A stretch of 34,213 bases of DNA, taken from NCBI GenBank assembly GCA_021162205.1, contig JAGGZE010000017.1:1-34213 (forward strand). Direction: 5' to 3'. Both the position numbers and the translations under genes were made by a program. Source of the stretch: a bacterium. Lineage in GTDB: Bacteria > UBP14 > UBA6098 > B30-G16. Positions 5,349 to 29,567 of this stretch are shown here, one piece after another. The notes under the pieces were generated by a model that worked only from the letters and a program-made list of their open reading frames with translations, did not search any database and was not told the DNA's origin. How positions within the stretch are numbered: position 1 is the first letter of the stretch; each line of letters begins with the position of its first letter.

Positions 5349-5456
5349 CAGGCGAATGCCTGCTGTTGCAGGGAATTGTCGATTCTATCCCGATTTTATC
5401 GGGACTTCATCGGGATTAAGAAAAAAGCAATGCGAAGAAAACACCCGAAGGGTGTT
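5349..5456 (+). repeat. Structured repeat, copy A (convergent gap, overlaps GH57 stop)
   Basis: It begins with a hairpin CAGGC-GAAT-GCCTG (5349-5362). The core from about 5366 has GTTGCAGGGAATT, an inner hairpin TCCCGA..TCGGGA (5388-5404) and an AGAAAAAAGCAATGCGAAGAAAA linker. It ends in distal hairpin AACACCC-GAA-GGGTGTT (5440-5456). The core and linker closely match the copy inside the gene at 8363-9724. The element lies between convergent genes. Confidence 0.85.
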
Positions 5457-5457
5457 A
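5434..5457 (-). terminator. Intrinsic terminator of the GH57 gene, supplied by the repeat
   Basis: On the minus strand the sequence reads stop codon TAA, then stem AACACCC, loop TTC, stem GGGTGTT and a TTTTCTTC run. The stop codon (5455-5457) shares bases with the stem. The stem is 7 bp and perfect. Confidence 0.7.
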
Positions 5458-7581
5458 AAGGTGGGCGATTTTCCACATTATTTCGGTTGTGAATTTTTCA
5501 TTCCGACCGAGATTGAATCTGAAAAGATGAATTACCGCAGTTTCTTGATATACACGCTCGAAACCCGATTCAGAATTCGACACGGTTTCGACTGGAAATA
5601 ACCATAGTTCATCGAAATGTCCTCGACAGCTTACCCGAAATTTTCTCGATTCATCGACAATTTCATAGCCATCGGTATCTATAAATGTTTTTCTATCACC
5701 CGGTCGAATTTGAATTAACGATTCGTGCGGAAATTTAAAATATCTTTGCGGGTCGTCTCGCGAAAGAAGCGAAAAATTAGTTTCCACACCGAACAGGAAT
5801 TCACGCCATTCACTTTTGTTCTCGATTTCATAAGAAATCACGAGTCGATTGCCCGGGGACTGCAGTGCAATTCTTTTCTCGATTGTCAATGGGAAATTTT
5901 TCTCCTCGAAATGAATACCGCCATCTCGTCGAAGTAGAACCTGTGTGTTTTCTTTTTTGGAATACTTTTCGATTATATCGTATTTTTGATTTATAAAATC
6001 GCCGAGTTCGGTATAATCGGTGTGTTCAAATCTTTCGCAATCTGTAAATGTCAGAAGGAAATGTTCCTGTGCGAATCGTCTCGTGTGCCAATCATAATGT
6101 ATTATATCCTCGAGCCCGCTTTCTTTAACTGTTATATGGTCGTGAATCGATGAATGCTCATCCCGAGTAGCTTTTTCGTGCTGAGCCTCCCACAAAAGCT
6201 TATGATAACCTTCTTTATAGCGAGAAAGTGTGTTTATTAAATTAACTTTGCCGGGCAGAAATGAAATTTCCTCTATATGCCCGCCGCAACTCGGTTTAAT
6301 CCAAAGACTAAGCTCGCCATTTGAAAGACGAATTTCATCCTGTCCATCGGCATCGATATCTGCTGTTGTCAATGGCTTGATGGGTGAATAATTTTCGATA
6401 ATATTCTCTGCATCTAAAATATTTGTCCATATTCCTTCGCGAAGATGCGGTAGATAAAGTCCACCGAAAACACCGTGCCAGTATGCACAGTTGCATTGCG
6501 AACGATAAAGAGACTTCATTGCATCTGAAGTATGTTCTTTCAATTTTCTTTTGCGTGAGTGAATTTGTTCCGATATCCAAAGCATACGCTTGTGCATCCA
6601 GTTCGATTCTTCGTATTTTGCAAGAAATTCGCGCCAGAATCCGCCCTTAACGAAGGGTTTAATCCTTTCCAATTCACCTGTTTCTTTGAGATGATGAACG
6701 AATTTATGAAAATCGTATGAAAGTTCTGCTGGCAATGTCCATTCGCTCATCTCGAAATACGAACCTGTCGGCATATACACTCGTCCCGATGGAACAAGTT
6801 TTTCGAGGACATCTGAGAAATTTATAAGGTTTATCCAATCGCTGTTGCTTTCGAGTTCGGTCAGCATTTTTTCCATCCAGCCCTTATCCCAAACCCATTT
6901 TTTTGTTCCTGGCCATAGTCCGAATTTTTCGCCATCGTCGGCAAACACAACGAGCCGTTTTCCACTATCATCGGCAATCGAGCGAAGATATGCCATCGTT
7001 TCCTCGACAGGAGCGAAAGGCATAGTATATCGCAATGTTTCGCTGATTGGGAAAATTGCCAAATTTTTGCCATTATTCTCGGTGATAAAATATCCAAGAA
7101 GTTTTTCACCCTCGATACCGACAGCTTTTAAGTGATAATCATCGACAGCTAAAAATTTCACATCGGCATCGTGAAGCAACGATGGCAAATGCGGTTCCCA
7201 AATGCGCTCGGTCAACCAAATGCCTTTGGGGATTACACCGAATTTATTGTAAATATAATCGGACATCATTTCGAGTTGTCCACGAGCATCATCGGGCGGA
7301 ATAACGGCGAGAATCGGTTCGTAGAAACCACCGCCGAGTATTTCACATTGTCCACGCTCGACCATAGATGAAATTGTGTCGAAAATTTGCGGGTATTCTT
7401 TCTCGAAATATTCCCATACAGGTCCGCTGATATGCAGTGCGAATGGAATCGATGGATGACTGCAAAGTGCTTCGATTAACGGCTTATATGAATCCTTCAC
7501 AGCTTGTTCGAATACGGATTCAAAATTGCCGACAGGTTGATGGATATGAAATCCGAGTGCGAAATTTATTCTATTAGACAT
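5455..7581 (-). CDS. GH57 4-alpha-glucanotransferase / alpha-amylase-like enzyme
   Basis: This 708-residue cytoplasmic enzyme acts on alpha-1,4-glucans. All five GH57 conserved regions are visible. They are HIHQP at 12-16, the GQCEILGG segment near 77-84, WLTER with the expected catalytic nucleophile Glu125, FADDGEKFG near 213-221 with the acid/base Asp, and SQCNCAYWHG around residue 360. The long C-terminal beta-rich part (after about residue 420) fits the DUF1925/DUF1926 domains of Thermococcus-type 4-alpha-glucanotransferase. Length and architecture favour glucanotransferase over plain amylase. There is no signal peptide. AGGAGGG precedes the ATG. The gene is monocistronic and its stop codon lies at the edge of a repeat hairpin. 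Confidence 0.92.
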   Translation of the reverse strand: MSNRINFALGFHIHQPVGNFESVFEQAVKDSYKPLIEALCSHPSIPFALHISGPVWEYFEKEYPQIFDTISSMVERGQCEILGGGFYEPILAVIPPDDARGQLEMMSDYIYNKFGVIPKGIWLTERIWEPHLPSLLHDADVKFLAVDDYHLKAVGIEGEKLLGYFITENNGKNLAIFPISETLRYTMPFAPVEETMAYLRSIADDSGKRLVVFADDGEKFGLWPGTKKWVWDKGWMEKMLTELESNSDWINLINFSDVLEKLVPSGRVYMPTGSYFEMSEWTLPAELSYDFHKFVHHLKETGELERIKPFVKGGFWREFLAKYEESNWMHKRMLWISEQIHSRKRKLKEHTSDAMKSLYRSQCNCAYWHGVFGGLYLPHLREGIWTNILDAENIIENYSPIKPLTTADIDADGQDEIRLSNGELSLWIKPSCGGHIEEISFLPGKVNLINTLSRYKEGYHKLLWEAQHEKATRDEHSSIHDHITVKESGLEDIIHYDWHTRRFAQEHFLLTFTDCERFEHTDYTELGDFINQKYDIIEKYSKKENTQVLLRRDGGIHFEEKNFPLTIEKRIALQSPGNRLVISYEIENKSEWREFLFGVETNFSLLSRDDPQRYFKFPHESLIQIRPGDRKTFIDTDGYEIVDESRKFRVSCRGHFDELWLFPVETVSNSESGFERVYQETAVIHLFRFNLGRNEKFTTEIMWKIAHL

Positions 7582-7727
7582 TTTTGCCCTCCTGAAAATT
7601 TTCCAAAATTACACTATAATAATTAAACATATAATTTTCAAATACGCAATCATAAAAATTTTCTTTGATACTAAATAGTTCATGTTAATTTTATTTCGAT
7701 TATATTAAAAAAATCGCTTGGAGCATA

Positions 7728-8291
7728 ATGTATCGAACAATCGTTCTTCTATACCTTTTTGTCTCGCTTTTATCGGCGAGTTGGGTGCAGGATTTCGACA
7801 ATAGTGTCTATAAGCAAATCAATTCACGCTGGCAATGTGGATTTTCCGATGCATATTTTCCTGTTGTCAGCAGAATCGGTGGCGGCGAAATATATATTGC
7901 CACCGATGCTGGATTTTTCTTTTTCGGCAATGAAAAAATGAAAAATTCTGCAAAGTTATCGACAGTTGGGCTCGCACTAACAATGCTCACCACGCAGGGT
8001 TTGAAATATGCTGTCGGTCGTCAGAGACCCGAAAATTCGAATTCTTCGCGATGGGATTCATCGTTTCCATCGGGGCATACCGCCGCTGCATTCACGATGG
8101 CTTATATTTATGGTTCGCAATATCCAAAATCTCGGATTCCACTATATGCTTTTGCGGTTTCTGTGGGACTTGCAAGAATTTATCTCGGCGAACACTATCC
8201 AACAGATGTAATCGCAGGTGCAGCAATAGGAACTATCGGTGGAATTGTGGTAATGAAAAATAAAAAATTTGTGCTATCGATTGGATTATAG
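7728..8291 (+). CDS. PAP2-family membrane/exported phosphatase
   Basis: The 187-residue protein has an N-terminal hydrophobic signal segment (residues 4-17) and the full PAP2 signature. The motifs are K93 to R100-P101 (KYAVGRQRP), PSGH at 114-117 and RIYLGEHYPTD with R150, H156 and D160. Enzymes of this family remove phosphate from phosphatidic acid, undecaprenyl diphosphate or related lipids outside the cytoplasmic membrane. The substrate cannot be told from sequence. It is short for the family, with only a few membrane segments. It is divergent from the GH57 gene across a 146-bp AT-rich spacer and followed 71 bp later by a secreted protein. Confidence 0.9.
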   Translation: MYRTIVLLYLFVSLLSASWVQDFDNSVYKQINSRWQCGFSDAYFPVVSRIGGGEIYIATDAGFFFFGNEKMKNSAKLSTVGLALTMLTTQGLKYAVGRQRPENSNSSRWDSSFPSGHTAAAFTMAYIYGSQYPKSRIPLYAFAVSVGLARIYLGEHYPTDVIAGAAIGTIGGIVVMKNKKFVLSIGL

Positions 8292-8362
8292 ATGAAACCA
8301 TAATCGACTTGATTTTTTGATTATCATCCACTATTTTATAGAAAATATTAGGGAGTATTTTA

Positions 8363-9724
8363 ATGAAATTCAAATTTTCTGTCACAATATTGTTTATTCT
8401 TGCAACATCTTGCTTAGCGATGAGGTATTTGCATTCGACAAACACTGTTGCACTTCGTGTCGATGATGTATATCCCGCCGGATTTGTGGAATTTTTATAT
8501 TATCCGATGGATAGCAGCGATGTGCTGTGGCGAGCTTTTTTAGGTCTCGATTTCAACAACGATGTCGAAATTTATCATGGTAGAGCGAACGATGAAGGCG
8601 ACCTTTCCGATGTTACTTTTATGTCGATTGCAGAACTCGAACTTACAGAGGATACACTGCTCGACTCGACGATGGTTATCGATTCGACAGACTCGGCGAT
8701 TTACGATACGACATACACTGTCGATACCATAATAACCTATGCGGAAACGAGATGTTCATTTCAATCCACCGATTTCAGACTTCGATTAGACCAGATTGTA
8801 ACATCGAATTACAATGGCGAACCGTATATCGAAATTGTGTGGATATTGACAAATATCGGCAGCGAAGACCTCGATGATGGCAATGTAGTTTTTCATTTCG
8901 ATGGAGATGTCCCCGACGATTTCTGGGATGACGATGTCCCTATCGAATTTCCATCGAAATCGAGTGCCTGTCAGATGGCATCGTCCAGCGATTCTAACTG
9001 CGCAGGTTTTATATGGCTTTCGGGCGGCGAGAATCATCGACTCGAAAATACACTCGATTGGGCATCTTATGGAATTTCTGTCGATTCGCTTATTTCATTT
9101 ATAAATGGTGATTTCTGGCTCGATTCAGAACATTTCGATGTCGATTCATCGGGAGATACTACATATCCATCCTGGGCAGACAGCATTTATGGCGATGCCG
9201 GTGTGGGACTGTTATTTTCACTGCCAGATATGTCCACAGGCGATATCGAGACATTATCCTTTTATTTTGCTGCGGCACCGACACCGGATAGTTTCGCTGT
9301 TTTAGTGGATTCATTTGCGAAAATCGACGAACCCAAATACACAAGCAATTTGCCCGAACAAATTCGCATCGATGCATATCCGAACCCTTTTAATTCATCC
9401 TGCAAAATCACAATTTCGTATAATGGAAATTCCGCTGGTGTTGCAAGGAATTTCGACTTTGTCGGCAAGGTCCCGACTTCATCGGGATTCAGAAAAAAGC
9501 AATGCGAAGAAAAGAGCCGAAGGGCTCAAAATACCTTAAAGGTGTTCGATTTGCGGGGGAATATCGTTGGTTCGACAAGCTCACCAACCGACAATGGTTC
9601 AACGAATAGTGCCCGCACATTTATCTGGCACCCGAAAAAATCTACACCCAGCGGGGTATATCTCGTGCATATTGTTATGGATAATGGGCAAACTGCTGTT
9701 AAGAAAATCGTATATATCGAGTAA
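8363..9724 (+). CDS. Secreted protein with type IX-like C-terminal sorting domain and an in-frame repeat insertion
   Basis: The 453-residue protein starts with a signal peptide (MKFKFSVTILFILATSCLA) behind AGGGAGT. The body (about 20-330) is rich in Asp, Ser and Thr and looks like a beta-rich surface domain with no recognised enzyme motif. The C-terminus has the sorting signature YPNPFNSS near 338-345 and ends in SGVYLVHIVMDNGQTAVKKIVYIE-like strands. Residues about 360-390 (VARNFDFVGKVPTSSGFRKK onward) are encoded by a copy of the dispersed structured repeat, lying between the strand CKITISYNG and the strand TLKVFDLRG. The insertion keeps the frame. Function of the body is unknown. The mnmE gene begins 3 bp after its stop. 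Confidence 0.85.
   Translation: MKFKFSVTILFILATSCLAMRYLHSTNTVALRVDDVYPAGFVEFLYYPMDSSDVLWRAFLGLDFNNDVEIYHGRANDEGDLSDVTFMSIAELELTEDTLLDSTMVIDSTDSAIYDTTYTVDTIITYAETRCSFQSTDFRLRLDQIVTSNYNGEPYIEIVWILTNIGSEDLDDGNVVFHFDGDVPDDFWDDDVPIEFPSKSSACQMASSSDSNCAGFIWLSGGENHRLENTLDWASYGISVDSLISFINGDFWLDSEHFDVDSSGDTTYPSWADSIYGDAGVGLLFSLPDMSTGDIETLSFYFAAAPTPDSFAVLVDSFAKIDEPKYTSNLPEQIRIDAYPNPFNSSCKITISYNGNSAGVARNFDFVGKVPTSSGFRKKQCEEKSRRAQNTLKVFDLRGNIVGSTSSPTDNGSTNSARTFIWHPKKSTPSGVYLVHIVMDNGQTAVKKIVYIE
9440..9531 (+). repeat. Structured repeat, copy B, in frame inside a coding sequence
   Basis: It starts GTTGCAAGGAATT, then hairpin CGAC-TTT-GTCG (9454-9464), hairpin TCCCGA..TCGGGA (9471-9487), the linker TTCAGAAAAAAGCAATGCGA and the distal hairpin GAGCC..GGCTC (9514-9527). 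The core and linker are nearly identical to copy A at 5366-5440. In this sense orientation the A-rich linker comes before the hairpin, so no T-run follows it and it should not terminate the host gene. Confidence 0.88.
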
Positions 9725-9727
9725 GCG

Positions 9728-11071
9728 ATGAATGAAACTGCTCAAAATTTTGCTTCTGTGGTTTCAGGTGAACCGATTGTCGCTCCATCGACTCCACGAG
9801 GACGCTCGGCTATCGCGGTAATCCGAGGCAGTGGAAATAATATAATCGAAATTTTCCAAAATGCTGTATCGCCATCGAAAGATATTCGCAAAATCGAATC
9901 GAACTATACCACTGTGGTTCAAATAAAAATCGACAATGTTGTCGATAAATCAATGATAACGATATTTCGTTCGCCTCGAAGTTACACCGGTGAGGATATG
10001 GTAGAATTGTCGGTTCACGGCAATCCAGTATTGGTCGATAAAATTGTGAAATCCGCTATCGAACAGGGTGCGAGGTTGGCACTCCCTGGCGAATTCACTC
10101 TACGAGCGGTTATTCACGATAAAATGTCGTTAATCGATGCCGAATCTGTCGAGGCGACTGTCGAAGCACAAACCGAACGAGCATTGAGCGCTGCGCGACA
10201 AGCCACACAGTTTTCAAAAGAACTCGCCGACATAAAAGAAAAACTATGGAATATACTGGTAGAAATGTCTGCGGTTCTCGAATTCCCCGATGATGAAATT
10301 CCCGATACAAATGTAATAAATTGGTTGAAAAATTTCGCCGATATCGATTCATATTTGCATAATTTTCTTGAGAAAGCGAAAAAATCGAAATTTCTCGATA
10401 TAGGATTGCAAATCGCAATCGCCGGCGATGTTAATGTCGGTAAATCTACTCTTTTCAATTGGATAGTCGGTGCGGAAAAAGCGATTGTAACGCCTCATCC
10501 GGGAACGACCAGAGATATAATCGAGACTACGGTCGAAATCGATGGCGTGCCGATAAAACTTATCGATACAGCAGGATTGCGTCGAAGTGAACATCCAATC
10601 GAAATCGAAGGAATCCGCAGGGCTAAAAATGTAATAGAAAATGCAGACATCGTTATATGGGTTATCGATGGTTCATCCGCTCTAATCGATGATAAACCCC
10701 CTAAAAATTCGATTGTCACAATTAACAAAGCGGATTTGGGAATTAGCGATACCATCTCTAAAAAATTCCCCGATGCTGCTATTATTTCAGCAAAAACCGG
10801 CACTGGAATGGATGAACTCGTGAAAAAAATCGAGAAACGATTCGCATTTATCCCCGCCGATGCCATTATGGTCTCCATCAGAACCGAAACACTTCTGCGT
10901 GAAGTCTGCAATGAAATAGAACAGGCAACCGATGCACTGAATAAAAATTTTTTCGATGTGGCACAGATTTTTGCCGAAAATGCCGATGATTCGATGGCAA
11001 AAATTTTAGGCATCGAAAATCGAACCGATATTTACGATGAAATATTTAGCAAATTCTGTATAGGAAAATAA
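9728..11071 (+). CDS. mnmE: tRNA modification GTPase MnmE
   Basis: This 447-residue GTPase, with MnmG, makes the 5-carboxymethylaminomethyl-type modification of wobble uridine. The N-terminal folate-binding region starts with IVAPSTPRGRSAIAVIRGSG (about 17-36). The central G domain shows the P-loop GDVNVGKST near 234-242, the GTTRD switch, DTAGLR near 281 and NKAD near 333. The C-terminus ends in the family hallmark FCIGK with the catalytic cysteine. Length is normal. No mnmG is in the window. The gene follows the secreted protein by only 3 bp. Its stop codon overlaps the stem of a terminator that belongs to a dispersed repeat. Confidence 0.97.
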   Translation: MNETAQNFASVVSGEPIVAPSTPRGRSAIAVIRGSGNNIIEIFQNAVSPSKDIRKIESNYTTVVQIKIDNVVDKSMITIFRSPRSYTGEDMVELSVHGNPVLVDKIVKSAIEQGARLALPGEFTLRAVIHDKMSLIDAESVEATVEAQTERALSAARQATQFSKELADIKEKLWNILVEMSAVLEFPDDEIPDTNVINWLKNFADIDSYLHNFLEKAKKSKFLDIGLQIAIAGDVNVGKSTLFNWIVGAEKAIVTPHPGTTRDIIETTVEIDGVPIKLIDTAGLRRSEHPIEIEGIRRAKNVIENADIVIWVIDGSSALIDDKPPKNSIVTINKADLGISDTISKKFPDAAIISAKTGTGMDELVKKIEKRFAFIPADAIMVSIRTETLLREVCNEIEQATDALNKNFFDVAQIFAENADDSMAKILGIENRTDIYDEIFSKFCIGK

Positions 11072-11090
11072 CAGGCATTCGCCTGTTTTT
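11070..11090 (+). terminator. Intrinsic terminator of mnmE, part of repeat copy C1
   Basis: Stem AACAGGC (11070-11076), loop ATTC and stem GCCTGTT (11081-11087) are followed by further T residues. Two bases of the mnmE stop codon (TAA, 11069-11071) are within the stem. Confidence 0.8.
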
Positions 11091-11160
11091 ATCGTGCAAC
11101 TTTTTTCTGAATCCCGATGAAATCGGGGTCTGACAACCGAGTTGTCATTCATTGTTGCAC
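11070..11160 (-). repeat. Structured repeat, copy C1
   Basis: The outer stem GTGCAAC (11094-11100) pairs perfectly with GTTGCAC (11154-11160). Inside are two hairpins: CCCGAT-GAA-ATCGGG (11113-11127) and TGACAAC-CGA-GTTGTCA (11131-11147). Outside lies the distal hairpin that serves mnmE. The element reads in the minus orientation and lies between convergent mnmE and the initiator tRNA. Confidence 0.9.
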
Positions 11161-11221
11161 TTGATTAATAAATAAATTTTGAAACGACTTAATTAAAAAG
11201 AAACAAAGGTTCAAAAAGAGC

Positions 11222-11291
11222 TGCACCCTTCGGGTGTTTTCTTTGTGCAACCTTTCTCCCCTCGACTTTGTGGGGAGATTTATTGTCGCAC
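11222..11291 (-). repeat. Structured repeat, copy C2
   Basis: The distal hairpin CACCC-TTC-GGGTG (11224-11236) is followed on the plus strand by TTTTCTTT. The outer stem GTGCAAC (11245-11251) pairs with GTCGCAC (11285-11291) with one mismatch. The inner hairpin TCTCCCC (11255-11261) pairs with GGGGAGA (11272-11278). The inner stem sequence is unrelated to that of copy C1 although the architecture is the same. Between C1 and C2 there are about 60 bp of AT-rich DNA with nothing recognisable. Confidence 0.85.
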
Positions 11292-11342
11292 CGCGAAACT
11301 ATAGTAAGTGTAATGATTGGTAAATTTAAATTGAAAGTAAAA

Positions 11343-11416
11343 TGGCGGGGGAAGGATTTGAACCTTCGACCTCCGGGTTATGAGCCCGGCGAGCTACCTG
11401 TCTGCTCCACCCCGCA
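11343..11416 (-). tRNA. Initiator tRNA-fMet (CAU anticodon)
   Basis: The 74-nt tRNA has anticodon loop CTCATAA. Initiator hallmarks are visible: three consecutive G-C pairs at the base of the anticodon stem (GGG...CCC), an A11:T24 pair in the D-stem and no Watson-Crick pair at 1-72. Positions 2-7 GCGGGG pair with 66-71 CCCCGC, while position 1 is T and position 72 is C, with discriminator A73. The usual bacterial initiator has C1 and A72, so this is a variant of the same hallmark. CCA is not encoded. Confidence 0.93.
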
Positions 11417-11425
11417 ATTAATCGA

Positions 11426-11454
11426 ATAAAATATAATTTAATTCTTTTTGTCAA
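11426..11454 (-). promoter_or_regulatory. Promoter of the initiator tRNA
   Basis: On the minus strand a perfect TTGACA (11449-11454) lies 33 bp before the tRNA. It is followed by an AT-rich stretch containing TATATTTTAT, in which the -10 box must lie; its exact register is unclear. Confidence 0.6.
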
Positions 11455-11549
11455 GAAATATATTCATTAAAATATTTATATTTTTTTATTTGCGTAATTC
11501 GATAAAAAATGAATATTTATAAATGAAATTAAAATCGGAGGGATAATTT

Positions 11550-12104
11550 ATGGAAAAAACTATAGCCGACACAGAAAAGAAGATGGAAAAGACAATCGAA
11601 TCGATTTCTCACCAGTTGGCAAGATTGAGGACAGGTAAGGCATCGACAGCATTATTGGATGGTATAAAAGTCGATTATTACGGCACGCCGACACCGATAA
11701 ATCAATTAGCCTCGATTTCGGTTCCCGAACCGCGATTGATAGTAATTCATCCCTGGGATAAAACAGCGGTGTCAGCGGTCGAACGAGCGATTCAATCATC
11801 CGACCTCGGATTAAATCCCAGTTCCGATGGCACTGTTGTGAGAATTCCAATTCCTGTGCTTAGCGAGGAACGCAGAAAAGAACTTGTAAAGATTGCCAAA
11901 GGAATCGCCGAGGACAGCAAGGTAGCTATCCGTAATATCCGAAGGGATATTATCGAGGATACAAAACAAAAGCAAAAAGATGGTGATATTCCCGAAGATG
12001 ATTCATATAGACTTCAAGAGAAAATTCAGGAACTCACCGAAAAATTTTCTAAGGAAATCGATGAAATTTTCAAATCTAAGGAAGATGAAATTCTGACAGT
12101 GTAA
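11550..12104 (+). CDS. frr: Ribosome recycling factor
   Basis: The 184-residue cytoplasmic protein splits post-termination ribosomes together with EF-G. It aligns with the family from end to end: LARLRTGKASTALLDGIKVD near residues 23-42, the YYGTPTPINQLASISVPEPR segment, IHPWDK, and the helix with RKELVKIAKGIAEDSKVAIRN around 108-128. The length is standard. It has GGAGGG before the ATG and stands alone, as there is no tsf or pyrH upstream as in many bacteria. A perfect AT-only palindrome begins at its stop codon. Confidence 0.97.
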   Translation: MEKTIADTEKKMEKTIESISHQLARLRTGKASTALLDGIKVDYYGTPTPINQLASISVPEPRLIVIHPWDKTAVSAVERAIQSSDLGLNPSSDGTVVRIPIPVLSEERRKELVKIAKGIAEDSKVAIRNIRRDIIEDTKQKQKDGDIPEDDSYRLQEKIQELTEKFSKEIDEIFKSKEDEILTV

Positions 12105-12123
12105 ATAAATTCAAATTTATTTA
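12102..12123. repeat. AT-only hairpin beginning at the frr stop codon
   Basis: TAAATAAAT (12102-12110), loop TCAA, then ATTTATTTA (12115-12123) form a perfect 9-bp stem whose first triplet is the frr stop. It lacks G-C pairs, so it would be a weak terminator at best. The rest of the gap to 12331 is AT-rich and holds one further small hairpin (ACATCT/AGATGT, 12146-12161) and presumably the promoter of the next operon, which I could not place. Confidence 0.6.
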
Positions 12124-12331
12124 TATAAGGATTTCAAAAATGGAAACATCTTTACAGATGTAAATGTATTTGTCATAGGATTTAGATTTTTTATAAATAT
12201 TCTCGTTATTTAAATCGATATTTTTTGATGCTCGATGAATTATTTTCGCAGAAAAATCTTGCGCACATTAAAATTAGCGATTTATTTGTTTCGATTATGT
12301 TTTCAATCGGTTTTTCTTAAGGAGGAAAACA

Positions 12332-13459
12332 ATGGGTCATGTTTATATACCTGGATTAAAAGTAACCGAATTTGAACTCGTTCAAAAAGAAAGGATTCTT
12401 CCATTAAAGGGAGATGTAATAGTTTCCATCGGCGATAGGGTCCAACCCGATACAACAGTTGCTCGAACTTTTCTTCCGGGTAAAATCGAATCCAAAAATA
12501 TAGCAGGACTTCTCTCTATCGACCCTGAAGACATCGAATTATATCTATTGAAAAAAGTTGGAGATAGTTTCAAAAAAGACGAGATTATCGCTCAAAATAA
12601 AGGTTTTTTCGGATTATTTAAGACTCAAGTAAAGACCTCGTTTATTGGAACTTTAGAAACTGTTTCAAAAGTGACAGGGCAAGCGATTTTACGAGCCGAA
12701 CCCGTTCCTCTCGAGGTTAAAGCTTATATACCCGGTATCGTGAAAGAAATATATCCCGACGAGGGCGTGCTTATCGAAACCTGGGCATCGTTTGTGCAGG
12801 GAATTTTTGGTATAGGGGGCGAAAGATTCGGCACGATTAAATTTCTCGCAGATTCTCCCGATAGCATTTTAGATGAGAATAAAATAGATGAAACTTGCCG
12901 AGACCATATTTTAATCGGCGGCGGAATGGTTACCGCAAAAGCTATTAAAAAAGCTGAATCGGTCGGTGTTAATGGAATCGTTACCGGCGGAATCGAAGCT
13001 TTGGATGTAGCAGATTATCTAGGATACGACATCGGTGTCGCTATAACAGGTTCCGAGGATATAGATTTATCACTGATGATTACAGAAGGTTTTGGACATA
13101 TCCCGATGGCACAAAAAACATTCGAACTACTGAGAAAATACGATGGTATGGAAGCATCGATAAACGGTGCTACTCAGATTCGTGCTGGTGTTATTCGTCC
13201 CGAAATTGTGATTAAGCAAAATGAACCATCGAATGAGATTAAAGAAAAAATGATGGCGAAAATGCAAGGTATCGAAACAGGTTCTATTGTGCGAGTGATA
13301 CGAGTTCCATATTTTGGCAGAATCGGCAAAATTGTGGGACTGCCATCGGAATTAAAACAACTCGAAAGTGAAACTTATGCTCGTGTTTGTGAAATAGAAT
13401 TCGATGATGGCACGCAGGCAACTGTGCCTCGAGCCAATCTCGAGATGATTGAAGACTAA
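12332..13459 (+). CDS. Conserved protein of the DUF6754 cluster with barrel-like and KOW-like domains
   Basis: This 375-residue soluble protein has AAGGAGGAAAAC before the ATG. No signal peptide or membrane helix is seen. The N-terminal part (1-130) contains two beta-rich segments of the barrel-sandwich kind (GDVIVSIGDRVQPD near 28-41 and KKVGDSFKKDEIIAQNKG near 73-90). The middle (about 185-285) has a Gly-rich alpha/beta stretch, DHILIGGGMVTAKAIKKAES and GIVTGGIEALDVADYLGYD. The C-terminus (about 320-375) looks like a KOW/SH3-like barrel (GSIVRVIRVPYFGRIGKIVG). It is the first gene of a tight plus-strand run with a DUF6754 protein 10 bp behind. Its function is unknown; I infer a cytoplasmic partner of the membrane proteins. 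Confidence 0.65.
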   Translation: MGHVYIPGLKVTEFELVQKERILPLKGDVIVSIGDRVQPDTTVARTFLPGKIESKNIAGLLSIDPEDIELYLLKKVGDSFKKDEIIAQNKGFFGLFKTQVKTSFIGTLETVSKVTGQAILRAEPVPLEVKAYIPGIVKEIYPDEGVLIETWASFVQGIFGIGGERFGTIKFLADSPDSILDENKIDETCRDHILIGGGMVTAKAIKKAESVGVNGIVTGGIEALDVADYLGYDIGVAITGSEDIDLSLMITEGFGHIPMAQKTFELLRKYDGMEASINGATQIRAGVIRPEIVIKQNEPSNEIKEKMMAKMQGIETGSIVRVIRVPYFGRIGKIVGLPSELKQLESETYARVCEIEFDDGTQATVPRANLEMIED

Positions 13460-13469
13460 AGGAGGCATA

Positions 13470-16193: not shown

Positions 16194-16220
16194 TTTCGTT
16201 TTTTATCATAGGAGGATATA

Positions 16221-16868: not shown

Positions 16869-16885
16869 AATAAGGGGGTATATCG

Positions 16886-18374: not shown

Positions 18375-18394
18375 TAGAATAATTTTGCAATATT

Positions 18395-22293: not shown

Positions 22294-22294
22294 A

Positions 22295-22424: not shown

Positions 22425-22488
22425 TAATATAAATCGATGAATTGTAATGGAATAACACAATAAGGTATTTGAATTGGGCACGAATGAT

Positions 22489-24963
22489 ATGAAATGGATT
22501 TTTATAATTTTTCTCGGGATTTCGATTTTGTCTGCGATACCGCCGGAAAGCCATCCTTCGCTTTTCTTTGACTATGAAGATATTCCCGCGCTTCGCGAGC
22601 GAATTTTACGAGAACCATATAGTGAATGGTATTCTCGATTATTATCCCTCGCCGATGGGGCTATCGGCAGAGATTACTCCGATGCAATCGAATATACAAA
22701 ATCTTTCGATGCCCTAAGCTGTGGGTTCGCATATATTGTCGAGGATGATACTTCATATATAGAACAGGCATTGCAGGCGATATATGCAATCGATGACAGC
22801 GGATATTGGGGCGAAGAAGATGTCGACCACGCTGCTGTCGCGATGCAATACGCTATTGCTTACGATATAATTGCAGGCACGGGTATTCTCGATACTTTGT
22901 CCGAAATCGACCTGTATATAAGAAACGAAATCGCTTACAAATGCCATGAATTCTTTTTCAATCCATTTGTTCTTTTTATCCCGAACAATCACCAGACGAG
23001 ATATTACAGTGCTTTGGGGATGATGGCTTTGACAATCGCAGACTATATCGGCGATGCTGGCAGTCCCGATGATTGGTATTCGTTCGCAATCGAAAAAGTA
23101 AATGCGATGTTTAGAGGTTTTCAGGTCGATTCGGATTATGGCTATGCCGAGGGTCCAACTTATTTGAGATATGGTAATGAAATTTTTTTACCGTTCTCGT
23201 GGACTGTTTCTCATCTCGCTCCTGCCGATGACTTTTTCAGCGATGGTTTCTTCGAGCAGGTATTTATTACAAACCTTGCTCTCGTTATGCCGGATGGCAC
23301 TTTCCCCACACTCGATGATTCTTGGCGACAGAAAAGTCTATCGCTTTTATATCTGTCATCACTCGATAATGCACCGCTATTTTATTGGCAATGGTGGATG
23401 AACTACGATGAACTCGAAAGCGAAGGATTAAGTATGTTATCGAATATGCTGCTGATTCCCGCTATTTGCATTTACGACGATTCGATAGTTCCTCGAATGC
23501 CCGATTTCGGTCCCGATATATTCTTTCCCGAGGCCGGTTATGTAGTTTTCCGCACGAATTGGACAACCGATGCGGATTATATTCTTATGATGTGCGAACA
23601 CGGTATAGCTCGAAACGCTGGTTTGATGCACGAACATCCCGACCAAACAAGCATAATCGCAGCATCGGATGGCGAAATGGGGATTATATCGGGCGGCTAT
23701 CCAGGTTGGGACAGGAGAGATATTTCAAATCGAGCGGAAGACCACAATCTTATTCTTGTCGATGGTGAGGGACCGCCTATTGCAACAACGTTCACCCGTG
23801 CAGGTGTCGATGGATGGCTTTATGGATGGACAGATTTGGAAAATATCGGTGCGATAGCATGTTCATGCTCGTATTGCGAATGCAATTTCCAGCGAAGACT
23901 TATAAATATTCCGAATCTTTGCTGGTTCATCGCCGATAAGGTTATCGGTTCGGATTCGCACACTTTCGACCATCTCGTTCACGCAATCGGCAGTGTAGAT
24001 TACGGTGAAATCTTGCCGGATACAGCAGGGATGATAATAAATCTCGCAGGAACGCAGATGAAATCCTTTATATATTCCACAAACGATTCGGTTTCTTATT
24101 CGTTCGAACCCGATTCTTTTGCGATGAACTGGCACCATCTCGTGCCATCGACCGTTCTCAATACCGAAACCGCAGGAACAACCGCATTGTTCCTTTGGCA
24201 TTTGATTCCACGCTCCGATAGAGAAATCGAATATAATCTATGGCAGTGCGATGGTGCAATCGTAAGGGCTATAATTGCCGATGACGATACTGTAATCGCT
24301 GCGATAATCGAACCCGACGATACGCTTCCGACAAGTCCCGATGAATTTAATTTCGACACCGATGGCTGGTTTGCACTTTTCATTCCCGATGGCGATAGTT
24401 CTTTGACAATCCATATCGCCGACGGAACTTATGCAAATTTAAGGGAAAATGAGATATTTAACGCCGATACATCGGTTACGATTACGATTTCATTCGATTT
24501 CGGAAATTTTTTGATACGAGGTCATTGCGAAAACGATGCGGAAATAATATTGTCATATCTCGATAATTACAGTGTCGATTCTGTGGTTGTCGATAGCACG
24601 ACAGTTGATTTTTCGTATGATAATGTGAGTGTTTCATTCGATATTGCACAAGAAAGCGATTTCATAGTATATCTTTCCCCTATGGAAATCACCGAGCATT
24701 CTGCTCAAGTGAAATCCTATATAGAATTTTTTCCAAATCCATTTTCGAATATTTGTAAAATCCATATTCCTGCAGGAATGAATATTAAAATTTATAATAT
24801 TTCAGGCAAATGTGTATTCAGTCGTTCATTTCAAAATCGAGCGGGAAAAGATGTTATCTGGCAACCGAAAATCGATTTGCCACAAGGAATATACCTTCTC
24901 GTCGCAAACGATGAAAAAACCAAAAAACACATATCGAAAAAAATAATACACCTCCATCCTTAA
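22489..24963 (+). CDS. Exported heparinase II/III-like protein with C-terminal sorting domain
   Basis: I start at ATG 22489, which gives 824 residues and a clean signal peptide (MKWIFIIFLGISILSA); the frame also contains a TTG 15 bp earlier. An alpha-helical toroid-like part (about 25-330) is followed by a beta-sheet part with MHEHPDQTSII near 378-388 and RAEDHNLILVDGEGP near 412-426. This matches the pattern of heparinase II/III and alginate-lyase polysaccharide lyases. The last 80 residues (EFFPNPFSN onward, IKIYNISGK, LPQGIYLLVAND) are a type IX-like sorting domain. It probably degrades uronic-acid-containing polysaccharide at the cell surface. The substrate is not determinable. Confidence 0.85.
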   Translation: MKWIFIIFLGISILSAIPPESHPSLFFDYEDIPALRERILREPYSEWYSRLLSLADGAIGRDYSDAIEYTKSFDALSCGFAYIVEDDTSYIEQALQAIYAIDDSGYWGEEDVDHAAVAMQYAIAYDIIAGTGILDTLSEIDLYIRNEIAYKCHEFFFNPFVLFIPNNHQTRYYSALGMMALTIADYIGDAGSPDDWYSFAIEKVNAMFRGFQVDSDYGYAEGPTYLRYGNEIFLPFSWTVSHLAPADDFFSDGFFEQVFITNLALVMPDGTFPTLDDSWRQKSLSLLYLSSLDNAPLFYWQWWMNYDELESEGLSMLSNMLLIPAICIYDDSIVPRMPDFGPDIFFPEAGYVVFRTNWTTDADYILMMCEHGIARNAGLMHEHPDQTSIIAASDGEMGIISGGYPGWDRRDISNRAEDHNLILVDGEGPPIATTFTRAGVDGWLYGWTDLENIGAIACSCSYCECNFQRRLINIPNLCWFIADKVIGSDSHTFDHLVHAIGSVDYGEILPDTAGMIINLAGTQMKSFIYSTNDSVSYSFEPDSFAMNWHHLVPSTVLNTETAGTTALFLWHLIPRSDREIEYNLWQCDGAIVRAIIADDDTVIAAIIEPDDTLPTSPDEFNFDTDGWFALFIPDGDSSLTIHIADGTYANLRENEIFNADTSVTITISFDFGNFLIRGHCENDAEIILSYLDNYSVDSVVVDSTTVDFSYDNVSVSFDIAQESDFIVYLSPMEITEHSAQVKSYIEFFPNPFSNICKIHIPAGMNIKIYNISGKCVFSRSFQNRAGKDVIWQPKIDLPQGIYLLVANDEKTKKHISKKIIHLHP

Positions 24964-25136
24964 CACCCGAATGGATACGAAACGGATTGTGTATCCGAGA
25001 TGAATTCTGAACCGGTGATGTGAATGTCTCTGGATCCCGCACCGTAGGTCGGGAATTAAATGATTGGGCATGATAATTGGTGCGCAATCTATCATGTTTC
25101 ATCATAGGTATCACTGGTTCAAAAGGATACGATAAA
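24964..25136. other. Intergenic stretch before repeat copy E
   Basis: About 170 bp without a gene in the convergent gap between the heparinase-like gene and the NlpC/P60 gene. It holds a hairpin GGATAC (24973-24978) with GTATCC (24991-24996) shortly after the heparinase-like stop codon. No T-run follows. Nothing else is recognised. Confidence 0.5.
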
Positions 25137-25264
25137 AACACCCGAATGGGTGTTGAAATGTTATTTTGCTCGAGCAGGTGCAACAGGGAATTTCACTCTA
25201 ATGAAAGGTCCCGACTTCATCGGGATTCAGAAAAAAGTTGCACACTAAAAACAGGCGAAGCCTG
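25137..25264 (+). repeat. Structured repeat, copy E
   Basis: A leading hairpin AACACCC-GAAT-GGGTGTT (about 25138-25155) comes first. The outer stem GTGCAAC (25178-25184) pairs perfectly with GTTGCAC (25237-25243). Inside are TTTCA..TGAAA and CCCGA..TCGGG hairpins, and the distal hairpin CAGGC-GAA-GCCTG (25252-25264) lies outside. It is placed between convergent genes. Confidence 0.88.
25244..25264 (-). terminator. Intrinsic terminator of the NlpC/P60 gene, from repeat copy E
   Basis: On the minus strand CAGGC-TTC-GCCTG is followed by TTTTTAG. It begins 14 bp after the TGA stop codon at 25278-25280. Confidence 0.75.
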
Positions 25265-25277
25265 CCTGAAGGGGTGT

Positions 25278-25808
25278 TCATCGTTTGATTACTCGTCTTG
25301 CACCGATATATCTTTTCGACCAGTAAGAATCGGTCATCGGTGTTATTGTTACACCGAGCGAGCTCGATGCGTGAGCGAATTTATTTCCGCCGATATATAT
25401 TCCGATATGCGATGGAGTTTTTTTTCTTGTGGTTCGGAAAAATACGAGGTCGCTGAATGCGAGTTCATCGTTGCCTATTGCTCGACCGAATTTCCATTGT
25501 TGTGCTACTGTGCGAGGAAGATTTATATCTAATGCTTCGCTGAAAACTTTTTGGACAAAACCCGAACAATCGATTCCTTTTTTGCCTGTGCCGCCGTATT
25601 TATATGGTGTCCCGAGATATAGATTGATTGTTCCATAAAGACTTCCATCTGTGGGAATTTTTTGAGCGCTTATTGTAGATTTTTCTGATACTTTCTTCTT
25701 TTTTGCAATTTGAATAGCTCTGCCTCTCGGCAAATACCTCGGCGATGGCGCACAACCGACAAATACTATTCCTGCTATTAAAAAGAATGTGTAAATAATC
25801 TTTTGCAT
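25278..25808 (-). CDS. NlpC/P60 family lipoprotein, cell-wall endopeptidase
   Basis: The 176-residue protein has a lipoprotein signal with the acylated Cys19 (IVFVGC). The NlpC/P60 domain occupies about 55-176 with catalytic Cys81 in GIDCSGFV, His134 in SHIGIYIG and a second polar residue at His146 (FAHASS). The enzyme should cut peptide cross-links or stems of peptidoglycan in the periplasm, like Spr/MepS. It stands alone, divergent from the large lectin gene, and its 3' end abuts a dispersed repeat that provides its terminator. Confidence 0.93.
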   Translation of the reverse strand: MQKIIYTFFLIAGIVFVGCAPSPRYLPRGRAIQIAKKKKVSEKSTISAQKIPTDGSLYGTINLYLGTPYKYGGTGKKGIDCSGFVQKVFSEALDINLPRTVAQQWKFGRAIGNDELAFSDLVFFRTTRKKTPSHIGIYIGGNKFAHASSSLGVTITPMTDSYWSKRYIGARRVIKR

Positions 25809-25905
25809 ATTTCCCTAAAAAACATATTGATTAAATTTATGATGAAGATTGCTGAATATTTTGCTTGGCTATTATTTTTAACCTCGAAGATTAAATTAAC
25901 TTTTA

Positions 25906-25933
25906 TTGACAGGTAGAAAATAATGATTATCTT
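25906..25933 (+). promoter_or_regulatory. Possible promoter of the lectin-domain gene
   Basis: A perfect TTGACA (25906-25911) is followed after 16 bp by TATCTT (25928-25933), about 60 bp upstream of the ATG at 25994. The -10 box matches only four of six positions. Confidence 0.4.
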
Positions 25934-25993
25934 AAAAATACAAAAGAGAAAATCAGCAAACTCATAATTATAAATAAAATTTAAAATTTTTCT

Positions 25994-28864
25994 ATGAGGC
26001 ATTATTTAGAACATTTTCTATTTATACTTTTCGTTTTATTTTTATCTATCGAATTTTCTTTCTGTCAGGAACTTCTCGTTCCAGAATTGCGAGTAGTATA
26101 TTGGCAGAGCGGAGTTTTGGATAGTTTTATATATCAGCCATGCGATAGCGGGATTGAAGATGTTTTTATTTGCCACAATGGGAATTGGCCTACAGATGGA
26201 ATTTACTGCGATAGTATAAATTACGGCAGTCATTGCAGCATTACACTTAAAGAAGATTGGCACTGGACACGGCGATTTTTTATTCGTTTCGATACCCTCG
26301 TTACCACTTACGATTCTCTATCAGAATGTCAACTGCGGATTTACAAGTATAGCACCGCAACTAATGCAAACTGGATACAGGCATATCTCGTTACGAGTGC
26401 ATGGAACGAAAATACGGTGAACTGGCTGACCGCACCTGCGGTTAATACGACAATCGCCTCCGACCAATTCACTCCGCCGTTTCCAAATTGGGAAGGATGG
26501 GTTATATTGAATATAGACACGATTTACGAGAACTGGGTTTCGGGAACGAATTATGGACTTCAGGTTCGCCAGCAAGACCTCGATTCTGACGATGGACAGG
26601 ATTTTTATTCATCGGAAGCATGCATTCCTGTCGACCCGTATTTTGTTATTCCTCCTGAAAGTTCCTTCACATCTTGCACCGACCAAAACATCGTTATCGA
26701 CTTCGATAATTTCTGCGCACCTGCCGATAGTTCCAGAATTATTCTCTGGGTCGATGGAACTCCATATACAATCGATTCCACCCAACTTACGCTCATTAGA
26801 GAAACGAGCACAGATACATTACGATTTGTGCCATCTCCGTTATTCTCTGACGGAGATACTGTGAATGTTATTCTCGATAGTATTTTTACCGAAACGGGAA
26901 TGTTTTCGCCATTTACTCCGATGACGCACATTTTTTTCGTCGATATACTGCCACCATTGCTCGAAAGCGTAAGTATCGCACCGGGCGATACTATCGGTTA
27001 TTTAATGGATTCGATTTGTTTCACTGTTTCCGACGATATGTCGGGCGTGGATATTTCACTGTTGAATATTACAATGAACGGTTCGCCTGTGAGTTTTTCC
27101 TATTCGGGAGGAACAGCGCTCTATGATATTTGCGCTCCCCTTTCATCGATTTTAGATTCCAACTATGTCTGCCTTCATCTCGAAGATATGGCACAATTTT
27201 GCGGTGCAAATACTGCAGATACCTGCTGGTCGTTTTACTTAATCGAACCGACTATCGATTCGGTATGGTTTTGGGAGGAAACCGACTGCAACGATAGCAA
27301 CATAGTCCATATCTGCTACATTTTAAGTGGCAATTCGGCAAATATCACAATCAGCATCAGTGCAGACAGCGGCGCTACTCTACACGAATCGGGAACCGAT
27401 TGGTTCGTTACTTTTATCGATTCTGCGGGAGATTTCGGTTCTGTCGCTCCCGATACTCATTGTTTCGATTGGATTATGAGCACAGATTTTCCCGATACCG
27501 AGGGATACGATTGGATGGTTGTGGTTAGTGCATTGCATCCGCTGTTTGCAGATTCGTTTTCAACTCTCGATTTCACACTCTATCAAATCAATGGCAACGA
27601 TGGCTTTGTGGCAGCCGATAGCGAATATTTTGTCCTGACTCAAAATACAACCTGGCGCAATGGCAGACTTATGACTGTCGATACATTTTTTTGCGATACA
27701 TTGGATATCGAGTTCATATTTAAGTTTGTTCCTGGCTGGTGCGATGTTTCCGATGATTCCACCGGTGCCGATGGAATTTCTTTGATATTTTCGCCATTGC
27801 TCGACCCACCGCTGTCTCCCGGTGGAAGTATCGGAATTATAGGCAGTGCGGGCTGGGGTGTCGAATTCGATACATATAATAATTTCTGTGGCAGTTCGCA
27901 ATCGGATATTAGCGGGAATCATACCGCCGTAAGTATCGATTCGGTCGCCTGCCTTTTTGTCGGAACCGATAGTGTTCCTGTCTCGCTGGAACAGGTAGAT
28001 ATTCCATTCGATATGGTGGACAATAACTGGCACAATGTCAGAGTTATAGTCGAATACCCACACTGTCGGGTGATTTTGGATGGTGTAAGCTATATCGATT
28101 CGGATTTCCCCGATTTGCCTGCACCATTCTGGGCTCATATCGGTTTTTCCGCATCGACAGGCGATTGCTATAGCGAACACATCATAGATAATATAGTGGT
28201 GAACAACCCGAGAATTATAGATACTTTGCATAGTGCGGATACGGCGTATGCTCCATTGGATTCGCACGAGCCGATTATCTCTATAGTATGCCCTGAAAGT
28301 TTTATCTATTCAGCCGGTGATTCGGTTTCGATACACTGGTCTATCGATGACCTTTTTTGGCGAAACGACCCCGGAACATTGTATATAGATTACGATACGG
28401 TTCATCTCGAATTATCGGTTTCGGATACAATCGCGGGAATCGAGATTCCTGCAACCTGTGAAAGTATTTCTGTTGCTGTTGCGGTGCGAGATTCATTCTG
28501 CAATTGGGGATACGATAGCTGTTCGTTCGGAATATGTTCGCAATTTTTCGCTCGGTTGCAATGTCCACCGCTCGATATTTTCACATCTTGCCAGAACCAA
28601 ACGATAGATTTTTTGGCTTTGGATACTGCTTGCCATTCATCTATCGACAGTGTTTATTTTACAATGTATATCATAGATTCTACAGGTGATACGAATTCGA
28701 TGAATTTGATAGGACCATCATCGAATGTGAATTTTGGGATTTTAGGCGATACGATTCAAATTTCCATCCACAATATCGATTTTTTCGATAAAGATAGTGT
28801 TGCAGCAACTCTCGATTCTATTCGAGATATAAATGGTTGCGTATCAGTTCCAGTTGAATTTTAA
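25994..28864 (+). CDS. Large secreted protein with DNRLRE-like, Ig-like and L-type lectin domains
   Basis: The 956-residue protein begins with a signal peptide (HFLFILFVLFLSIEFSFCQ). Residues about 30-200 fit a DNRLRE domain (RRFFIRFDTL, AYLVTSAWNENTVNWLTAP, YGLQVRQQD). Ig-like repeats follow (about 215-540), then an L-type lectin-like domain (about 546-735; FVLTQNTTWRNGR, GADGISLIFSPL, GWGVEFDTYNN, NWHNVRVIVEY), then another Ig-like part. It is probably a surface carbohydrate-binding protein. Unlike the other two exported giants, it has no sorting domain. The last unit, which parallels residues about 225-320, stops abruptly at VSVPVEF, just before a dispersed repeat. The 3' end therefore looks truncated. 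Confidence 0.8.
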   Translation: MRHYLEHFLFILFVLFLSIEFSFCQELLVPELRVVYWQSGVLDSFIYQPCDSGIEDVFICHNGNWPTDGIYCDSINYGSHCSITLKEDWHWTRRFFIRFDTLVTTYDSLSECQLRIYKYSTATNANWIQAYLVTSAWNENTVNWLTAPAVNTTIASDQFTPPFPNWEGWVILNIDTIYENWVSGTNYGLQVRQQDLDSDDGQDFYSSEACIPVDPYFVIPPESSFTSCTDQNIVIDFDNFCAPADSSRIILWVDGTPYTIDSTQLTLIRETSTDTLRFVPSPLFSDGDTVNVILDSIFTETGMFSPFTPMTHIFFVDILPPLLESVSIAPGDTIGYLMDSICFTVSDDMSGVDISLLNITMNGSPVSFSYSGGTALYDICAPLSSILDSNYVCLHLEDMAQFCGANTADTCWSFYLIEPTIDSVWFWEETDCNDSNIVHICYILSGNSANITISISADSGATLHESGTDWFVTFIDSAGDFGSVAPDTHCFDWIMSTDFPDTEGYDWMVVVSALHPLFADSFSTLDFTLYQINGNDGFVAADSEYFVLTQNTTWRNGRLMTVDTFFCDTLDIEFIFKFVPGWCDVSDDSTGADGISLIFSPLLDPPLSPGGSIGIIGSAGWGVEFDTYNNFCGSSQSDISGNHTAVSIDSVACLFVGTDSVPVSLEQVDIPFDMVDNNWHNVRVIVEYPHCRVILDGVSYIDSDFPDLPAPFWAHIGFSASTGDCYSEHIIDNIVVNNPRIIDTLHSADTAYAPLDSHEPIISIVCPESFIYSAGDSVSIHWSIDDLFWRNDPGTLYIDYDTVHLELSVSDTIAGIEIPATCESISVAVAVRDSFCNWGYDSCSFGICSQFFARLQCPPLDIFTSCQNQTIDFLALDTACHSSIDSVYFTMYIIDSTGDTNSMNLIGPSSNVNFGILGDTIQISIHNIDFFDKDSVAATLDSIRDINGCVSVPVEF

Positions 28865-28886
28865 ATATAAGATATAATTCCGATGT

Positions 28887-28975
28887 TGTTGCAAGGAATT
28901 CCCGGTTCTATTGGGAATGTTCCGACTTATTTGGATTCAGAAAGAAACAATGCACAAAAGACGGGCGAATGCCTA
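28887..28975 (+). repeat. Structured repeat, copy D1 (degenerate)
   Basis: GTTGTTGCAAGGAATTCCC, a weak inner hairpin and GATTCAGAAAGAAACAATGCACAAAAG match copies A and B with many changes. The frame that encodes GFRKKQC in copies A and B is also open here. The distal hairpin (CGGGCGAATGCC) has decayed. Confidence 0.7.
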
Positions 28976-28986
28976 TCCGAATGGGT

Positions 28987-29005
28987 GAGTCCTTCGGCTC
29001 TTTTT
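28987..29005 (+). terminator. Likely intrinsic terminator of the lectin-domain gene
   Basis: GAGTC-CTTC-GGCTC with one T-G pair is followed by TTTTT (29001-29005). It lies about 120 bp after the stop codon, in the convergent gap. Confidence 0.6.
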
Positions 29006-29017
29006 AAATGTGAAAAG

Positions 29018-29112
29018 TTATTTTGACTAATCTAATGCAACAATGAATGACAACTCGGTTGTCAGAAAAGTTGCGCACAAAAAACACCCGAATGGGTGCA
29101 GGCGAACGCCTG
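29018..29112 (+). repeat. Structured repeat, copy D2
   Basis: The outer stem TGCAAC (29036-29041) pairs with GTTGCGCA (29070-29077). The inner hairpin is TGACAAC-TCG-GTTGTCA (29048-29064). Two distal hairpins follow: CACCC-GAAT-GGGTG (29085-29098) and CAGGC-GAAC-GCCTG (29099-29112). About 70 bp from 29018 recur with few changes at 29423. Confidence 0.9.
29078..29112 (-). terminator. Double terminator downstream of tRNA-Ser (CGA), from repeat D2
   Basis: On the minus strand two hairpins in series, CAGGC-GTTC-GCCTG and CACCC-ATTC-GGGTG, are followed by TTTTTTG. They start 14 bp after the 3' end of the tRNA. Confidence 0.7.
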
Positions 29113-29126
29113 CCCGAAAGGTAATG

Positions 29127-29216
29127 CGGAGGGGGGGGGATTCGAACCCCCGGTCCCGAATAAACGGGACAACGGTTTTCGAGACCGCCCCGTTCGACCA
29201 GCTCCGGCACCCCTCC
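29127..29216 (-). tRNA. tRNA-Ser (CGA anticodon)
   Basis: The 90-nt class II tRNA has acceptor GGAGGGG paired with CCCCTCC and discriminator G. The anticodon stem GCGGT/ACCGT encloses loop CTCGAAA with anticodon CGA. A long variable arm (TGTCCCGTTTATTCGGGACC region) and a GGTTCGAATCC T-arm are clear. CCA is not encoded. A weak promoter-like TTGTCC and ATAAAT pair with 17-bp spacing lies upstream on the minus strand. Confidence 0.96.
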
Positions 29217-29326
29217 GAAAATATTAGTTGAAATTTATCAGTTAGCAAACAGTATGGACAAAGCCTTCCATTTGTGAATTTCAAGGCATTGCAGGGAATC
29301 TTGCATATGCGGGATTTCCTATCGCC

Positions 29327-29406
29327 GAACCCTTCGGTTCTTTTTGAGTTTTCAGCTCTTTTTAGGGACGACTTTTTTTTCACAAGAGTGAAATTCATTG
29401 TCGCCC
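29327..29406 (-). repeat. Structured repeat, copy F0
   Basis: The distal hairpin GAACC-CTTC-GGTTC (29327-29340) is followed by TTTTT on the plus strand. The outer stem GGGACGAC (29365-29372) pairs with GTCGCCC (29400-29406) with one bulged base. The inner hairpin is TTTCAC-AAGA-GTGAAA (29378-29393). The architecture is kept although none of the stems shares its sequence with copy F1. Confidence 0.75.
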
Positions 29407-29422
29407 AGACATTTTGATATAG

Positions 29423-29503
29423 TTATTTTGATTAATCTGGTGCAACAATGAATGACAACTCGGTTGTCAGAAAAGTTGCGCACAAAAAACACCCAAATTG
29501 GTG
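29423..29503 (+). repeat. Structured repeat, copy F1
   Basis: The outer stem GTGCAAC (29440-29446) pairs with GTTGCGCAC (29475-29483), with inner hairpin TGACAAC/GTTGTCA. The distal hairpin is CACC-CAAATT-GGTG (29490-29503). The first 70 bp are almost identical to copy D2. It runs directly into copy F2. Confidence 0.9.
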
Positions 29504-29567
29504 GCGTTGCAAAGGAATTCCGACTTTGTCGGAAGGGACGCAACGCAAAGAAAACACCCGAAGGGTG
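29504..29567 (+). repeat. Structured repeat, copy F2
   Basis: The outer stem GCGTTGC (29504-29510) pairs perfectly with GCAACGC (29540-29546). The inner stem TTCCGAC (29518-29524) pairs perfectly with GTCGGAA (29528-29534). The distal hairpin is CACCC-GAA-GGGTG (29555-29567). The outer stem has changed on both sides relative to GTGCAAC/GTTGCAC, which is strong evidence for selection on pairing. Confidence 0.92.
29549..29567 (-). terminator. Terminator of tRNA-Ser (GGA), from repeat F2
   Basis: On the minus strand CACCC-TTC-GGGTG is followed by TTTTCTTTG. The stem begins three bases after the tRNA discriminator. Confidence 0.7.

Follow-up and report, generated by a model that had tools for sequence, protein, structure and literature searches.

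Repeat copies in the window

The window (the whole stretch of 34,213 nucleotides that was analysed, contig JAGGZE010000017.1) carries protein-coding genes, two tRNA-Ser genes and ten copies of a palindromic repeat (Table 1). The repeat consists of an outer stem around one or two inner hairpins, followed by an A-rich linker and a distal hairpin with a GAA or GAAN loop, which is exactly the architecture described in an earlier reading of the letters of this stretch (the sequence-only reading). A covariance model (R1) was built from 30 copies, and a second model (R2) was also run on the window. These models recover nine of the ten copies listed by the earlier reading, with E-values of about 2e-4 or better; for the first copy and the copy at 29031 the matches span 5359-5455 and 29031-29098, slightly less than the extents in Table 1. 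The remaining copy, 29504-29567, is below threshold for both (E<=1), yet it folds into the same layout, with GCGTTGC/GCAACGC around TTCCGAC/GTCGGAA, plus CACCC-GAA-GGGTG. The positions proposed earlier were off by no more than tens of bases. The orientation of the copies had gone unnoted, and three of them (11072, 11223 and 29345) lie on the minus strand.

Table 1. Repeat copies in the window, with the basis of each assignment
Feature	Position	Strand	Basis
Full copy, two inner hairpins	5359..5456	+	Covariance model matches
Full copy, in frame within the type IX secretion sorting domain of ORF 8363-9724	9434..9527	+	Covariance models, Pfam
Full copy	11072..11164	-	Covariance models, sequence
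Compact copy, one inner hairpin	11223..11295	-	Covariance models, fold
Full copy	25174..25265	+	Covariance models, filled/empty comparison
Degenerate full copy	28882..28975	+	Covariance models
Compact copy with an extra arm hairpin	29031..29115	+	Covariance models
Compact copy, GGCGAC/GTCGCC class	29345..29410	-	Covariance models
Compact copy	29436..29503	+	Covariance models
Compact copy, GCGTTGC/GCAACGC class	29504..29567	+	Fold

Several of the copies touch the ends of genes. The distal hairpin of the first abuts the stop codon of a glycosyl hydrolase family 57 gene (5455-7581, minus strand; Pfam and ORF call), and a terminator-like arm of the copy at 11072 lies directly 3' of the stop codon of a plus-strand mnmE-like gene (9728-11071; Pfam). 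Both tRNA-Ser genes, identified by ARAGORN, have an arm directly downstream: the copy at 29031 follows tRNA-Ser(CGA) (29126-29216, minus strand), and the arm CACCCTTCGGGTG-TTTT of the last copy follows tRNA-Ser(GGA) (29570-29661, minus strand). The copies at 29345 and 29436 are head to head, and the latter shares 94% identity with the copy at 29031 across an 83-nt repeat (29421-29503). It is worth adding that the window also holds imperfect tandem repeats of the GGTTCATACGAACC/AAGTCC type at 3044-3239, inside ORF 2844-3248.

Copy number and distribution

With one 87-nt copy as query, blastn gave 43 matches in the same genome, and the covariance model found at least 146 copies there at an E-value threshold of 1e-3. 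In 364 kb of stretches, sampled mostly around copies and amounting to about 14% of the 2.57-Mb genome, there are 246 model matches, of which about 240 are unique once five duplicate loci and one copy from another genome are removed. The genome thus has at least about 240 copies, in line with the hundreds that the sequence-only reading had named as support for a real family. Arrays and head-to-head pairs are common among them.

The distribution outside this genome is narrow. Among 40 relatives searched with the covariance model, 39 have no copies; the exception (G005), from a different genus within the same bacterial family, has three copies by the model and a fourth (L233) by eye. The only record matched by an exact-pattern search of genome contigs is from the same relative (JAGHAI010000121.1, a metagenome-assembled genome, 'bacterium isolate AUK226'). 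A wide distribution was accordingly rejected, as was an origin from a phage or plasmid, there being no match among phages, plasmids and viral contigs. An integron attC site was also considered. The attC consensus is GTTRRRY/RYYYAAC, which GTTGCAC/GTGCAAC does not fit, nor are the neighbouring genes cassettes; this candidate was rejected too.

Covariation of the stems

Covariation was scored on 146 distinct copies against shuffled and slid controls, in an alignment that was fitted to the structure. Across the outer stem and inner hairpins, 91.6% of cells are paired, and there are 328 double-change cells, whereas shuffles give 102 +/- 8.6 and slid controls no more than 43; these cell counts overstate the number of independent events, since most of the double changes belong to a small number of discrete stem classes that copying has multiplied. 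The distal stem, scored separately, has 170 double-change cells out of 700, compared with a mean of 53 and a maximum of 70 when the arms are shuffled. The outer stem is paired in 93% of cells and has double changes at six of its seven pairs, inner hairpin 1 has them at four of five, and inner hairpin 2 (TCCCGA...TCGGGA) is nearly invariant. There are 63 outer stems of the class GTGCAAC/GTTGCAC, 15 of GCGTTGC/GCAACGC and seven of CGGCGAC/GTCGCC, and there are also hybrids, in which the left arm of one class faces the right arm of another and is mismatched to it.

That the stems change on both sides, as the sequence-only reading proposed, is therefore confirmed by double changes (counted by cells) far above both sets of controls. 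Its stronger statement, that pairing and not sequence is kept, holds for these double-sided changes but goes too far for hairpin 2 and the linkers, which are conserved in sequence, and for the outer stem, which falls into few classes. Neither of the two outcomes that would have spoken against its proposal was seen: the covariation exceeds that of shuffles, as counted by cells rather than over a tree, and no Rfam family matches.

In the orientation of that reading, G-U and A-C oppositions number 36 and 34 in the outer stem, and 18 and 41, and 9 and 37, in the inner stems. Since G-U is no commoner than A-C, folding of RNA on this strand is not visibly maintained, and the integrity of the palindromes may instead be kept at the level of DNA. 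The excess of A-C in the inner stems would fit folding of the opposite strand, though it may go back to a small number of events. If our reading of the repeat is right, there is also a general caution here: covariation inside a repeat family does not necessarily imply selection at the RNA level.

Exchangeable hairpin modules

In the genome as a whole the core of the repeat has one to three exchangeable inner hairpins within the outer stem. Between GTGCAAC and GTTGCAC, inclusive of both, the copy at 25174 differs from one on another contig (C105:5785) only by one exact 25-nt hairpin-2 module, TCCCGACTTCATCGGGATTCAGAAA. Hairpin 1 occurs in many whole alternatives (TTTCACTCTGGTGAAA, TTCAGACTTTGTCTGAA, TGACAACTCGGTTGTCA and others), some of its variants being linked by true compensating changes, such as TTTCAC..GTGAAA and TTCCAC..GTGGAA. 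The inner hairpins are discrete modules, and the one of 25 nt has been gained or lost exactly. In some copies a palindrome of the GTAGGGGCGTATCGAATACGCCCCTA type stands beside the left arm or replaces it (for example C168:40334).

Copies within protein genes

Most copies are intergenic, and those found in frame within genes mostly occupy loops of type IX sorting domains. Counting gave 108 of these domains, which would suggest that the organism belongs to the FCB group. The Por_Secre_tail domain of ORF 8363-9724 (residues 339-450) is 112 residues long, and the excess is filled in frame by the copy that begins at 9434 (Pfam and reading frame). The same loop holds compact copies at six other loci (L203, L204, L206, L207, L031 and, weakly by the model, L210), while paralogous domains at four loci (L211, L212, L215 and L219) have no copy there; at L216 a copy occupies a second loop of the domain. 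Several of the in-frame copies may be descended from duplicated domains. One arm variant, CACCTTAAAGGTG, is nearly the same as the codon sequence for TLKV found just after the insertion in these sorting domains and, to judge from this likeness, one might speculate that some arms were picked up from sorting domains. If the mechanism proposed below is right, the in-frame copies show repeats lengthening the loops of secreted proteins. Another in-frame palindromic repeat, with a peptide of the type WERSPDxDxRxREVSP, occurs in two sorting-domain loops (loci L204, L205, L206, L208, L209, L212, L213, L214 and L217).

Terminator-like arms at the 3' ends of genes

The structure of the distal hairpin is as the sequence-only reading had it, but its resemblance to a terminator pointing into the element was missed. 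Read on the opposite strand, the distal hairpin and linker form a hairpin followed by a T run, facing inward, in 122 of 140 copies; the outward sense gives 16 of 140, and shuffles give 8.2. On the left side, 76 of 136 copies have a terminator-like signal no more than 130 nt away, compared with 12.4 in shuffled sequence.

Thirty tRNA loci were picked irrespective of repeats. At 12 of these 30 genes an arm starts 0-12 nt past the 3' end of the tRNA, always as a hairpin and then a T run, for which the chance under uniform placement is about 2e-31; none of the 30 has an arm in the 30 nt upstream. As judged by sequence, the 122 right arms and the arms at these 12 genes have the form of intrinsic terminators at gene ends, with a GC-rich hairpin and then a T run in the sense of transcription. 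Viewed by eye, most of the tRNA genes that have no repeat (among loci L143-L172) lack an obvious hairpin-T terminator immediately downstream.

For protein genes the figures are rough, as they rest on simple ORF calls in stretches chosen around copies: an arm lies -1 to 10 nt from the stop codon in 12 of 78 gene-end neighbours, against none of 47 start-codon neighbours (p 0.003), and arms are present in 29 of 44 convergent spacers compared with 8 of 30 divergent ones (p 0.002). The putative terminators would often be bidirectional, and termination itself is our inference. The enrichment at 3' ends could also stem from purging of copies elsewhere.

Nesting in a second repeat family and the search for a mobiliser

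A second palindromic repeat, family B (CCCTCATCC..GGGAGAAGG..GAATGAGGG), is present in the window at 31182-31260 and 31698-31775; of the eight genomes in the bacterial family, seven have it, this one included. Copies of the main repeat occur beside or inside it. In G005 they are located between the two halves of the family B palindrome, where the filled sites lack an 11-nt spacer, AGAACAAAATT, that the empty family B copies have. By this comparison of sequences, these sites show replacement rather than clean insertion. No target-site duplication is seen at the three G005 family B sites that hold a copy, the genomic comparisons gave no unoccupied site showing a clean target duplication, and the sampled part of the genome (about 14%) yielded no autonomous parent element with the same ends.

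There are three Y1_Tnp loci; at one of them a copy lies 45 bp away on the 5' side, with none on the other. A REPtron, in which a RAYT gene is flanked by repeats, was set aside, the adjacency being one-sided and at a single locus of the three. Separately, an apparent type IIG restriction-methylase gene (positions 1-3303 of L032, contig C114), its methylase motif read by eye, contains an in-frame Y1 (IS200-like) transposase domain; the in-frame repeat peptides RRLKSSVQG and NGGLQSTA surround the Y1 domain.

Proposed mechanism

The dispersal, modularity and covariation of the repeat, its directionally consistent terminator-like arms, its placement at 3' ends and its in-frame copies are directly observed. 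We consider it probable that the repeat is a non-autonomous mobile mosaic palindromic element, similar to MITEs and REPs, whose arms act as terminators. Its core, the outer stem with its exchangeable hairpins, would be flanked by arm hairpins and AT-rich linkers, such that transcription entering from outside would meet a hairpin and then a T run. Copies would have been inserted throughout the genome, including within protein genes and beside other palindromic repeats, and would have persisted chiefly at the 3' ends of genes, both tRNA and protein-coding; there the arms would serve as intrinsic terminators, often in both directions. Movement would have depended on a transposase, for which a single-strand Y1/HUH enzyme is our guess.

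The most serious competitor, though an unlikely one, is a purely selfish palindrome, with the 3'-end placement reflecting tolerance and the look of a terminator being a by-product of AT-rich linkers beside stems. REP and pneumococcal repeats are likewise located near 3' ends (PMC3733652, PMC3049150), tolerance has already been proposed for the pneumococcal ones (PMC3049150), and the in-frame and clustered copies do look parasitic; however, the close contact with tRNA 3' ends and the constant order of hairpin and T run exceed what tolerance would give. It is improbable that the repeat is a structured RNA family, transcribed in the orientation of the sequence-only reading and selected as a folded RNA (a regulator, stability element or small RNA). 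The strong covariation and the stable predicted folds are what such a family would have, but G-U is no commoner than A-C in the outer stem and is rarer in the inner ones, copies lie within coding frames and in both orientations relative to genes, and there is no match in Rfam. We give slightly less credence still to the idea that there is no transposable element at all, and that terminators have been spread and homogenised by recombination, gene conversion or template switching between palindromes. This would account for the hybrid outer stems, the swapped hairpin modules and the lack of target duplications at the G005 family B sites, and no partner transposase was found; but copies are present in coding sequence and between the halves of an unrelated repeat, and so some insertion step is needed.

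If the element is indeed mobile with terminator arms, it provides a clear example from nature of a small mobile repeat that was taken into service as the stop signal of tRNA genes, with copies dense enough for the gain, loss and swapping of palindrome hairpins to be studied. A further proposal, which we put forward tentatively and regard as rather doubtful, is that this mobile family is the main supplier of terminators for the tRNA genes and many protein genes of the lineage, with whole hairpins being swapped in and out and new terminators arising through insertion, not point mutation.

Comparison with known repeat systems

At the gathering threshold Rfam finds only tRNAs in the window, no repeat copy in 25100-29570 reaching the gathering score, and membership of an Rfam family was rejected. 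The earlier statement that no described family has this exact layout thus stands for the databases searched, but the kind of repeat is well described, in the form of REP/BIME, BOX/SPRITE and the Rickettsia palindromic elements.

MITEs are short, non-coding, high-copy elements with inverted ends (PMC10969869). The present repeat resembles them in its terminal inverted repeats (the outer stem of 7-8 bp), high copy number and absence of coding capacity, but its outer stem is shorter than typical MITE ends, and it shows neither a target-site duplication (three G005 family B sites) nor a parent insertion sequence (genome sampled). Rickettsia palindromic elements, according to PMC10969869, are inserted in frame in protein genes. 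The habit is alike, except that here in-frame copies are the minority and favour type IX sorting-domain loops.

REP/BIME sequences of the GTAG and CGTC super-families are high-copy palindromes, found in pairs of opposite orientation, mostly in convergent or unidirectional spacers close to 3' ends, and some are in frame inside genes (PMC3733652). Placement at 3' ends and in convergent spacers, with occasional in-frame copies, is shared by the present repeat, which is however about 65-100 nt long with nested hairpins, compared with 20-40 nt for REP. A tagged REP was rejected, since in none of 139 copies do the 15 nt scanned at the outer stem's left foot contain a GTAG, GGAG or CGTC tag.

BOX and SPRITE of Streptococcus pneumoniae are modular structured repeats with optional inner modules, found in clusters and also inserted one within another; of the two, SPRITE resembles a terminator and is overrepresented near the 3' ends of coding sequences, and target duplications are known for BOX (PMC3049150). 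Like them, the present repeat combines a terminator-like arm with optional inner modules, a likeness of description, as sequences were compared only with Rfam. It differs in its unrelated host, in uniting core and terminator arms in one element, in exchanging whole hairpins as modules, and in that no target duplication like those of BOX was found (three G005 family B sites). The repeat is a new and unusually modular family, but its general category is already known, since it shares its placement and in-frame habit with REP, its modularity with BOX/SPRITE, and its in-frame habit also with the Rickettsia elements.
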